This document shows positions 19,413-21,251 of a stretch of DNA of 46,355 nt, piece by piece (position 1 is the first letter of the stretch; every line of letters begins with the position of its first letter). The DNA is from an uncultured Nocardioidaceae bacterium. Lineage in GTDB: Bacteria; Actinomycetota; Actinomycetes; Propionibacteriales; Nocardioidaceae. The stretch spans positions 1 through 46,355 of the forward strand of contig CADCUI010000022.1 of assembly GCA_902805845.1 (NCBI GenBank), in the 5' to 3' direction. Position numbers and translations under genes: made by a program. A model generated the notes under the pieces. The model did not search any database. It worked only from the letters and a program-made list of their open reading frames with translations, and was not told the DNA's origin.

Positions 19413-20234
19413 ATGCACAGGCGTGGCCGGGCCGCCATGTCGTCGTCGGTTCCGCGCCACCATGGCCGGGTGCTCGACGCCTGGCTCGATCTCGTCCTGG
19501 GCTCGCGGTGCGCCGGGTGCGGCGCACCGGGGCGGGCGCTGTGCGTCGGCTGTGACGGCGCCCTCGCGCGCGTGGCGGCGGAGGCCTGGCCCACCCCGAC
19601 GCCGCCAGGGCTGGTCCGCCCGTCCGCGACGGCAGCGTACGGAGACCAGGTCCGGGCAATGGTGATCGCGCACAAGGAGGAAGGGAGGCTGGCGCTGGCT
19701 CGTCCGTTGGGACGGCTGCTCGGGGCCGCCGTGCTCGACGCCGCCCTCGCGCCCGCCGCCGGGACTGTCCCGCCGCGGCAGGCCACCGGGATCGATCTCG
19801 TCCCGGTCCCGTCCCATCCCGCGGTCGTCCGGCAGCGGGGCCACGACCCACTTCTGCGGATCGCGCGCGTCGCGGCCGGCGATCTTCGTCGGCAGGGCTT
19901 CGACGTCCGGGTGCGACGGCTGCTGCGGGTGACCGGGGCGCGTCCCGGCGACCAGGCGGGGCTCGACGCCGCGGCGCGTGCCGCCAACCTCGACGGGCGG
20001 TTCACGACCCGTCCGCGTGCCGGCGACGCCGCTGGCCGCCGCGGCGGGAACGGCCATGAGCGGGTCCTGGTGATCGTCGACGACGTCATCACCACCGGTG
20101 CCACGCTGCGTGAGGCGCAGCGCGCGCTGGAGGCGGCCGGTTTCCCGCCGCACGCGGCGGCCTGCGTGGCCGCCACCCGCCGGCGGCTGCCAGCGGGCGG
20201 ACCCCCGCTTCCGAGGAGCGGTCCGGAGGACTAG
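19413..20234 (+). CDS. ComF family phosphoribosyltransferase-like protein
   Basis: Protein of 273 aa. An N-terminal zinc ribbon (CAGCGAPGRALCVGC) is followed by the VPVPSHPAVVRQRGHDP segment and a PRPP-binding loop VLVIVDDVITTGAT typical of type I phosphoribosyltransferases. Named for Bacillus ComFC, a DNA-uptake protein; in actinobacteria the lpqB-comF-hpf-secA order is conserved and competence is not implied. The start is uncertain: ATG at 19413 or at 19437, neither with a good Shine-Dalgarno sequence. Its stop codon overlaps the -10 box of the RNA locus downstream. Confidence 0.88.
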   Translation: MHRRGRAAMSSSVPRHHGRVLDAWLDLVLGSRCAGCGAPGRALCVGCDGALARVAAEAWPTPTPPGLVRPSATAAYGDQVRAMVIAHKEEGRLALARPLGRLLGAAVLDAALAPAAGTVPPRQATGIDLVPVPSHPAVVRQRGHDPLLRIARVAAGDLRRQGFDVRVRRLLRVTGARPGDQAGLDAAARAANLDGRFTTRPRAGDAAGRRGGNGHERVLVIVDDVITTGATLREAQRALEAAGFPPHAAACVAATRRRLPAGGPPLPRSGPED

Positions 20235-20237
20235 CGT
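20209..20237 (+). promoter_or_regulatory. Promoter of the structured RNA upstream of hpf
   Basis: TTCCGA (20209-20214), a 17-bp spacer and TAGCGT (20232-20237, overlapping the comF stop codon). Six bases after the -10 box comes A20244, the first base of the long-range helix of the RNA. The match between predicted transcription start and helix start supports both calls. Confidence 0.5.
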
Positions 20238-20243
20238 CTGAGC

Positions 20244-20572
20244 ATGGAGTCCGTCCGGGTCCGTGGTTGCGCCGGCGGGAGCAGTCCGGGACCCGAGCCC
20301 GGCGAGTCCTGCCGGCAAGCCGATGCCAGTCGCAGGCGAAACGGTCCACGTAAGACGCCGCTCCGGGCGCCCATGGGTGCTCGGCGTCGTCGATCACGGT
20401 GCGGCTTAGAGGTAAGTCCTGCCGTCCAGGGGCCGCCAGATGCGGCGCCGGTGCCGACTGCCTCCGGGCAGCCGGCGCCACCGGGCGAGAAGGCGGGTAG
20501 TGGCAGAGAAGCCGCGAGAGTCTCAGCAGGCGGTTGTGGGGTCGAAGACCAGGTCGGCCGGACGGGCTCCAT
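20244..20572 (+). ncRNA. Large structured non-coding RNA upstream of hpf, probable raiA-type RNA
   Basis: A gap of 402 bp between comF and hpf has no credible coding frame but dense pairing. P1: 20244-20258 with 20558-20572, 15 consecutive pairs including one G-U, closing the whole element. P2: 20271-20280 with 20307-20316 (10 pairs), capped by 20286-20290 with 20298-20302. P3: 20354-20360 with 20382-20388 and an inner stem 20367-20372 with 20375-20380. P4: 20432-20436 with 20442-20446. P5: 20450-20462 with 20467-20479, 12 pairs and one A-C mismatch, closed by a cUCCGg tetraloop. P6: 20540-20543 with 20547-20550. A separate 7-bp hairpin follows at 20587-20606. The raiA motif is a known structured RNA class found upstream of raiA/hpf in Firmicutes and Actinobacteria; the location is the basis for that name. 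I could not run a covariance search. Confidence 0.7.
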
Positions 20573-20586
20573 CCGAGGCATCTTCA

Positions 20587-20606
20587 CCGGTACGGACGGG
20601 TACCGG
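20587..20606 (+). terminator. Hairpin between the RNA and hpf
   Basis: CCGGTAC-GGACGG-GTACCGG is a perfect 7-bp stem with a 6-nt loop. It lies 14 bases after P1 of the RNA and 18 bases before the hpf Shine-Dalgarno sequence. It may define the 3' end of the RNA or attenuate transcription into hpf. No U-tract follows. Confidence 0.4.
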
Positions 20607-20636
20607 CAGCCACGCGTCGAATACGGGAGGTAATGC

Positions 20637-21047
20637 ATGGATGTCGTCGTGAACGGTCGCCACTTCGAGGTGTCGGACCGCTTCCGAGCCCACGTCGAGG
20701 AGAAGCTCGGGCGGCTCGAGAAGCACGACCACCGGCTGATCAGGGTGGAGGTCGAGCTCGCGATGGAGCGCAACCCGCGGCTGCAGGACAAGGCCGTGCG
20801 CGTCGAGCTGACGGCGTTCTCGAAGGGGCCGGTGATCAGGGCCGAGGCGGCGGCCGAGGACAAGATGACCGCCCTGGACAGGGCACTGGACAAGATGGCG
20901 GCACAGATGCGCCGGGCCGCTGACCGCAAGCGGGTCCATCGCGGCAAGCACACGCCAGTCTCGGTGAGCCAGGCTCTGGCCGGCTCGGTGGCCGACGACT
21001 CGGCGCCGGTCGAGCCGCCGGAGGAGACGTCGCGCCAGGTGGCCTAG
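20637..21047 (+). CDS. hpf: Ribosome hibernation promoting factor, N-terminal part (split by in-frame TAG)
   Basis: Fragment of 136 aa with the ribosome-binding HPF/RaiA domain: MDVVVNGRHFEVSDRFRAHVEEKLGRLEKH, the ERNPRLQDKAVRVELTAFSKGPVIRAEA strand region and DKMTALDRALDKMAAQMRR helix, then a basic and acidic linker. It ends at TAG (21045-21047) after RQVA. The next codon begins a frame encoding exactly the C-terminal domain of long HPF, so the normal protein of about 204 aa is interrupted. The domain binds the decoding region of the 30S subunit. If only this part is made it would act like a short-form HPF. GGGAGG lies six bases before the ATG. Confidence 0.9.
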   Translation: MDVVVNGRHFEVSDRFRAHVEEKLGRLEKHDHRLIRVEVELAMERNPRLQDKAVRVELTAFSKGPVIRAEAAAEDKMTALDRALDKMAAQMRRAADRKRVHRGKHTPVSVSQALAGSVADDSAPVEPPEETSRQVA

Positions 21048-21251
21048 TTGACCGTCGACGGCGACGGACCGCTGGTGGTGCGGGAGAAGACGCACACCGC
21101 CGGACCGATGACGCTGGGCCAGGCCTTGTACGAGATGGAGCTGGTCGGCCACGACTTCTTCCTCTTCGTCGACCAGGACACCTCCCGACCGTCGGTGGTC
21201 TACCGCCGCAAGGGATATGACTACGGAGTGATCACCCTCGAGGCCGGCTAG
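21048..21251 (+). CDS. hpf: C-terminal dimerisation domain of long HPF, downstream of the in-frame TAG
   Basis: Fragment of 67 aa: PLVVREKTHTAGPMTL, QALYEMELVGHDFFLFVD and RPSVVYRRKGYDYGVI are the typical 'ribosome-associated protein Y C-terminal' domain, which dimerises HPF and joins two 70S ribosomes into 100S particles. It is in the same frame as, and immediately after, the TAG ending the N-terminal part. The first codon is TTG, a possible start by termination-reinitiation, but there is no separate Shine-Dalgarno sequence. Could be a sequencing error, a recent nonsense mutation, read-through, or a true two-cistron arrangement. The domain itself shows no decay. Confidence 0.8.
   Translation: MTVDGDGPLVVREKTHTAGPMTLGQALYEMELVGHDFFLFVDQDTSRPSVVYRRKGYDYGVITLEAG

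Follow-up and report, generated by a model that had tools for sequence, protein, structure and literature searches.

The raiA RNAs that precede hpf in Actinomycetes begin with a start codon and are mostly crossed from that codon onward by a reading frame that selection very probably keeps open. The favored explanation, at a probability of roughly 0.5, is that in this class the hpf transcript has raiA as its 5′ part, which would also be a leaderless message that a ribosome has to cross before hpf can be expressed. If this is true, a single sequence is kept for both an intricate fold and unbroken translation, with no selected peptide. The raiA RNA is widely conserved and very abundant in Clostridia. 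Also named ModT, it has been described as a noncoding RNA of >2,500 species of Bacillota and Actinomycetota, and its gene neighborhood was judged a poor guide to function (PMC11706538). A class in which raiA stays readable by ribosomes chiefly when hpf is next to it would make the link between raiA and hpf directly testable.

The window is the whole stretch of DNA analyzed, 46,355 nucleotides from an uncultured Nocardioidaceae bacterium (assembly GCA_902805845.1, contig CADCUI010000022.1, positions 1-46,355), and its raiA locus is designated L001. A scan of the whole window with Rfam at gathering thresholds returned a single match, the raiA RNA RF03072 (Table 1), and the genome, which is 96% complete, contains one copy. 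The covariance-model match, together with covariation among relatives, makes it almost certain that the stretch is a member of the raiA family, as the sequence-only reading had proposed. The gene order is a comF-like gene, the raiA RNA, hpf, and a LuxR-type response regulator; the order comF-raiA-hpf is typical of the family. The upstream ORF is presumably comF-like, a name given from its position. Neighbors of raiA RNA have been reported as comFC upstream in 74% and raiA/hpf downstream in 66% (PMC11706538). The hpf gene of the window (20637-21251) is split between its two domains by an in-frame TAG at 21045-21047. Its product of 136 aa is the sole HPF below 180 aa among the 103 family loci (median 207), and the TAG may be a mutation, a sequencing error, or the sign of a split gene.

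Table 1. Features of the comF-raiA-hpf locus, in window coordinates
Feature	Position	Strand	Basis or remark
comF-like gene	19413..20234	+	ORF; PF00156 match under its cutoff, 23.4 vs 26.3 bits
-35-like TTCCGA, 17 nt upstream of -10	20209..20214	+	column profile of 103 loci; weak in Nocardioidaceae
Predicted -10 box TAGCGT; overlaps the comF stop codon by its first three bases	20232..20237	+	conservation
raiA RNA (ModT)	20244..20572; Rfam core 20250-20566	+	RF03072 105.5 bits, cutoff 101.3, E 6.1e-25, model 1-209 (full length)
Putative leaderless ORF through raiA RNA, 129 codons + stop, ends 3 nt before hpf	20244..20633	+	ORF listing, frame counts in relatives
P1, 5′ strand; start codon is its first three bases	20244..20258	+	pairs with 20558-20572
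Probable P2, a variable stem located between P1 and P3	20271..20316	+	20275-20312 covaries; length a multiple of 3 in 100/103
pk-1, 5′ side (P3 loop)	20328..20334	+	pairs with 20400-20406
Probable P5, variable hairpin	20354..20391	+	20355-20390, 20357-20388 covary
pk-1, 3′ side, continues into conserved CTTAG	20400..20406	+	frame steps past the TAG of CTTAG
Probable P7 and distal hairpin 20431-20447	20423..20487	+	20426-20484, 20431-20447, 20432-20446, 20433-20445 covary
Lineage-specific inserted hairpin, UCCG loop of the UNCG type, within P7	20450..20479	+	12 pairs, one A-C mismatch
Probable P8 and distal stem 20500-20504/20511-20515	20491..20523	+	pairs kept in 102-103 of 103
P1, 3′ strand	20558..20572	+	pairs with 20244-20258
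7-bp hairpin 3′ of raiA RNA, no T run	20587..20606	+	CCGGTAC 20587-20593 / GTACCGG 20600-20606
hpf Shine-Dalgarno, GGGAGGT	20626..20632	+	read directly; hpf ATG at 20637
hpf N-terminal domain, ends at in-frame TAG	20637..21047	+	PF02482 E 1e-21
hpf C-terminal domain, same frame past TAG	21048..21251	+	PF16321 E 2.7e-23

Matches to RF03072 were found in 103 of 197 Nocardioidaceae genomes; 100 lie over the cutoff, and the score of the window is among the family's lower ones. The set of Actinomycetes from other families (n = 77) consists of 69 of the 84 class matches outside the own family and all 8 matches of the order-level family f4. Other classes are represented by the best 30 of 133 matches by score, 28 of which fitted. 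Loci that did not fit the anchors (L146, L155, L156, L163, L178, L199, L211, L239, and L257) were left out, as were four further misfits (L254, L312, L315, and L347). Eight identical RNAs were merged, and L330, which equals L142 in sequence, was counted once.

All 100 shuffled sequences fold less stably than 20244-20572 (z -4.1). Covariation was assessed over 280 columns of the 103 aligned family copies, this genome included, by a G-test with APC against a null in which substitutions were re-placed on the tree. Seven column pairs were significant at E ≤ 0.05, all seven within helices of the RNAalifold consensus, so the compensatory change that the sequence-only reading had suggested looking for in relatives is present. 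The inner part of P1 and most of pk-1 are nearly invariant among the 103 copies and hence leave little for such a test. The helix that this reading had placed at the ends of the RNA exists with all 15 pairs of P1, one of them T20250-G20566, including the extension outside the Rfam core; the pairs of 20246-20258 are formed in 100 to 103 of the 103 loci. At 20248-20250/20566-20568, the pairs A-T, G-C, and T-A/T-G are each replaced in 11 of the 103 loci, by C-G, A-T, and C-G, respectively, and these three neighboring pairs of the P1 extension did not reach significance in the covariation test. The seven positions of pk-1 are paired in 98-103 of the 103, with a change from A-U to U-A at the outer pair 20334/20400 in five. 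They are taken to correspond to pk-1 of the cryo-EM structure of raiA, in which the P3 loop and the pk loop form seven consecutive pairs and which also contains pk-2 and non-canonical contacts (PMC11751092). The 7-bp hairpin ahead of the hpf Shine-Dalgarno sequence was likewise read correctly. The 12-pair cUCCGg stem exists too, but it lies outside the family core: columns 20452-20481 hold at least 10 letters only in the window and in one other genome (L073) of the 103, and the stem was rejected as a family feature.

The RNA begins with ATGG in 103 of 103 family loci. The A and T at +1 and +2 are invariant in all of them, although the two outermost pairs of P1, in which they take part, are formed in just 49 and 73 of the 103; pairing therefore does not explain their conservation. 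The motif TANNNT precedes ATGG by 6 nt in 95 loci and by 7 nt in 8, the pattern having been demanded when loci were collected (found in 102 of 102; L059 was added by hand). The -10 box of the window is where the sequence-only reading had put it, with A20244 as the seventh base after it. As for the RNA having a promoter of its own, the -10 element is kept in the 103 loci and its assignment rests on this conservation, but the -35 element is weak and a generic promoter and terminator scan of this stretch of the window returned nothing. In a number of loci from other families, CTGACA was seen by eye at the -35 position. A start codon stands at the 5′ end of the RNA in 73 of the 77 other-family loci (ATG 59, GTG 14), with TANNNT 6-7 nt before the NTG in 72 of the 73. 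Such a TANNNT motif ∼10-12 bp upstream of the start codon is a mark of leaderless genes, which are common in Actinobacteria (PMC3160421). By sequence, the loci have the signature of a leaderless message with a predicted transcription start at the ATG or GTG.

From this codon, the frame runs through the RNA without a stop in 100 of the 103 family loci, whereas the other two frames are open in 4 and 2. Among the other-family Actinomycetes it is open in 66 of 77, against 7 and 11 for the other frames, and outside the class, within the same phylum, in 0 of 28 raiA RNAs. When 138 unique RNAs were pooled (order, class, and named loci), 78 of 87 with NTG and TANNNT were open compared with 1 of 51 without. 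Closed frames occur in 3 of 103 loci of the own family and in five other-family Actinomycetes loci that have both NTG and hpf. The conserved segments ACGTAAG, CTTAG, and GTAGTGG contain stop triplets, each closing one phase, so that a random phase would leave ∼21% of loci open in the family and ∼19% in other families. Shuffling of the variable letters alone, with the phase kept, leaves 34%–35% open. Within the first two variable regions, family copies have stops at 0 of 2770 triplets in frame and at 46/2589 and 9/2673 out of frame; the corresponding values for other families are 2/1487, 26/1409, and 5/1441.

The lengths of the variable regions point the same way. Eighteen lengths occur in the family for the stem that follows P1, with multiples of three in 100 of the 103 copies, and the lengths of the P5 loop fall into residues modulo 3 as 79, 23, and 1, which means that one phase is avoided. 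Independent pairs differing in length were taken on a tree of HPF proteins with 173 tips. Lengths differed by multiples of three in 38/50 pairs for the P2 region (p 8e-10) and 27/40 for the P5 region (p 1e-5), as against 4/20 and 9/35 for two later regions. When shifts of 1-2 nt were simulated for the regions in the same order, the share of frames that stayed open was 2%, 31%, 49%, and 92% in the family; for other families it was 10%, 11%, 40%, and 90%. The preference for multiples of three thus parallels the tolerance to shifts, as selection for openness alone predicts. A conserved reading frame had been named in the sequence-only reading as an argument against a raiA RNA; this opposition does not stand, since the frame is kept while the structure covaries, and the raiA fold and the reading frame are true together.

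In Actinomycetes, the presence of the frame largely goes with that of hpf, which was sought within ∼1.5 kb downstream for most loci. Each of the 103 family loci has the gene downstream and in the same orientation. In other-family Actinomycetes, the frame is open in 64 of 70 loci with hpf and in 2 of 7 without (Fisher p 0.0004, kinship ignored); with a cruder criterion for hpf the counts were 63/69 and 3/8 (p 0.001, again ignoring kinship). Family f39, with a locus GC of 0.42-0.52, offers a natural experiment. In f39 the frame is open in 5 of 6 loci with hpf compared with 2 of 13 without (p 0.0095, kinship ignored; three of these 13 are also among the seven other-family loci without hpf). The sixth f39 locus with hpf retains the ATG and has one stop in frame, and the start codon itself is gone in 9 of the 13 without hpf. 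A tree of comF tentatively suggests more than one loss. In ten f39 loci (L116, L132, L136, L331, L333, L334, L337, L338, L340, and L343), the place of hpf after raiA is taken by what is presumably a transporter-like gene. Among Bifidobacterium-like loci (including L142), where hpf is not next to raiA and the following gene is presumably secA, three of four distinct RNAs have a closed frame. An open frame in the absence of hpf is found at L111, L116, and L342. From these sequence comparisons, the frame appears to be mostly lost in raiA copies without hpf. In the other classes, 26 of 28 raiA loci have hpf downstream and lack this frame, so the gene pair does not require it in general.

The gap between raiA and hpf has a median length of 86 nt in the family, 106 nt in other families, and 355 nt in other classes. 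A run of TTTTT occurs in the gap in 0 of 103, 1 of 70, and 19 of 26 loci, respectively, a contrast that is partly an effect of gap length and composition, as the gaps of other classes are longer and have a GC of 0.56 versus 0.69 and 0.68; TTTTT lies ≤60 nt from the RNA in 7 of the 26. In the window, a pattern scan found no intrinsic terminator between raiA and hpf. With neither a terminator pattern nor TTTTT before hpf, raiA and hpf probably share one transcript, of which raiA is the 5′ part. The description of the window's RNA as discrete needs amendment, since it is probably not a separate transcript. Most of the gaps at six loci of other classes (L301, L303, L307, L308, L310, and L314) contain T runs. 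The gap at these six loci apparently holds a short gene, presumably of the cold-shock type.

A frame that ends close to hpf could reflect translational coupling, in which the ribosome would stop near the hpf start and restart there. Indeed, the frame of the window ends just before hpf, and 81 of the 103 family stops lie ≤60 nt from the hpf start (median -14). The family's stop positions, however, spread over -147 to +609 with respect to hpf, and the hpf of the window has its own Shine-Dalgarno site. Over the 205 loci that combine NTG and hpf with an open frame, stops within the gap amount to 157/8332 in frame versus 139/8309 and 95/8367 in the other frames; for gaps >150 nt the values are 47/3657 versus 58/3655 and 49/3667. 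As in-frame stops are not avoided there, no guidance of ribosomes to the start of hpf is visible, and the closeness of the stop to hpf can result from a short gap. Tuned coupling is therefore unsupported, and coupling in general is improbable.

Avoidance of stops inside the RNA and not beyond it would also be expected of a ribosome trap, in which the mature RNA is a stopless leaderless message and ribosomes run to its end and are rescued there. Where raiA remains without hpf, though, the frame is mostly gone, which ties the frame to hpf and not to raiA itself and makes a trap quite unlikely. The same low probability is given to a plain raiA RNA that acts in trans, as it does in C. difficile and C. 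acetobutylicum (PMC11706538), with the start codon and the frame as accidents of GC and ancestry. Long frames are common at high GC and the members of the class share descent, but the rarity of open alternative frames, the independent-pair test, and the shuffling of variable letters all speak against an accident, as do the f39 loci with hpf, which have open frames also at a locus GC of 0.45-0.52. This view is already hard to hold.

A functional small protein, to which the length of the frame and its start codon at the predicted beginning of the message might point, was rejected as very improbable: differences per codon position are 0.18, 0.20, and 0.164 (46 independent same-length pairs, first two variable regions), synonymous changes account for 84 of 280 single-difference codons in the 46 pairs (0.30; expectation 0.298), the frame in which a conserved RNA segment is read differs among relatives (81 versus 22 at the TTAG segment), and the ORF of the window has no Pfam match. 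GC by codon position in the variable regions of the family is 0.77, 0.68, and 0.756. What selection keeps, as judged from these comparisons, is apparently the absence of stops rather than a peptide. An antisense gene was also rejected, the best minus frame being open in just 52 of 103 loci, and so was an N-terminally extended HPF; the frame runs on into hpf at L069, which is not general.

The preferred reading remains that raiA of Actinomycetes is the leaderless 5′ part of the hpf transcript. Because the frame is kept mainly where raiA lies between the promoter and hpf, the simplest interpretation is that a ribosome must cross raiA. A polarity mechanism could account for this need, at odds just short of even. 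A 70S ribosome would start on the 5′ AUG or GUG as it emerges from the polymerase and would trail the polymerase across raiA, thereby averting an early end of transcription, be it by Rho-type polarity or by termination or cleavage triggered by the fold. The hpf gene would thus be transcribed, and its translation would start at its own Shine-Dalgarno site. Without such a ribosome, the transcript might be ended by Rho, among other candidates; a rho gene is encoded in the same genome. In-frame gap stops are unprotected even in gaps >150 nt, which counts against the model; polarity can be compatible with unprotected short gaps and would prefer protection in long ones. It also counts against the model that translation would unfold a highly ordered RNA.

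If no ribosome were loaded, the RNA could fold, P1 would close over the start codon, and a stable raiA RNA would result. With the AUG located within P1, folding and translation should be mutually exclusive. A switch between the two is conceivable, although rather doubtful: entry of a ribosome would leave the RNA unfolded and allow hpf to be made, and folding would hide the start codon and yield the stable RNA. In that case, leaderless 70S initiation would determine how much of the hibernation factor is produced. Stress in mycobacteria is reported to raise the expression of leaderless genes together with that of ribosome-stabilizing factors (PMC9386245), and such a rise in leaderless expression would suit a hibernation gene.

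The locus resembles the raiA/ModT family (RF03072) in its covariance score, P1, pk-1, the variable P5, P7, and P8, and the positions of comF upstream and hpf downstream. It differs from raiA/ModT as described (PMC11706538; PMC11751092) in the leaderless start codon, the lack of a T-run terminator, and the stop-free frame. The main text of PMC11706538 contains none of the terms translated, open reading, or ORF. A leaderless stop-free frame in raiA is absent from the literature matches listed; the founding papers (Weinberg 2017; Soares 2024) lie outside that scope and may mention it. The family is known, and the leaderless, stop-free arrangement in Actinomycetes is filed here as new. Polycysteine attenuators reportedly occur among the mycobacterial leaderless small ORFs, in work by Canestrari in 2020. 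Analogous to these ORFs, the raiA frame has an ATG or GTG at +1 and lies upstream of an operon gene (PMC4633059). They are mostly short, however, according to the same source, whereas the raiA frame passes in ∼80-115 codons through a tertiary-structured RNA and its codon content is not kept. A further parallel is the toiL uORF of E. coli topAI, where translation of the leader bears on the completion of downstream transcription (PMC12121999). There, as described, a short ORF senses stalls at given codons, whereas in raiA the openness of the whole RNA is kept and a role of Rho is conjectural.

The region upstream of hpf (140 nt) was also inspected by eye in 16 Nocardioidaceae genomes without a match to RF03072. 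In 6 of the 16 (L348, L351, L352, L354, L355, and L356), a raiA-type promoter and a start of ATGGAG or ATGGCA still stand before hpf, apparently a remnant after loss of raiA. In 5 others (L357, L358, L359, L360, and L363), an ATG placed 6-7 nt after the hpf promoter is followed at once by a stop (ATGTGA or ATGTAA); the predicted hpf message would begin with this start-stop pair.
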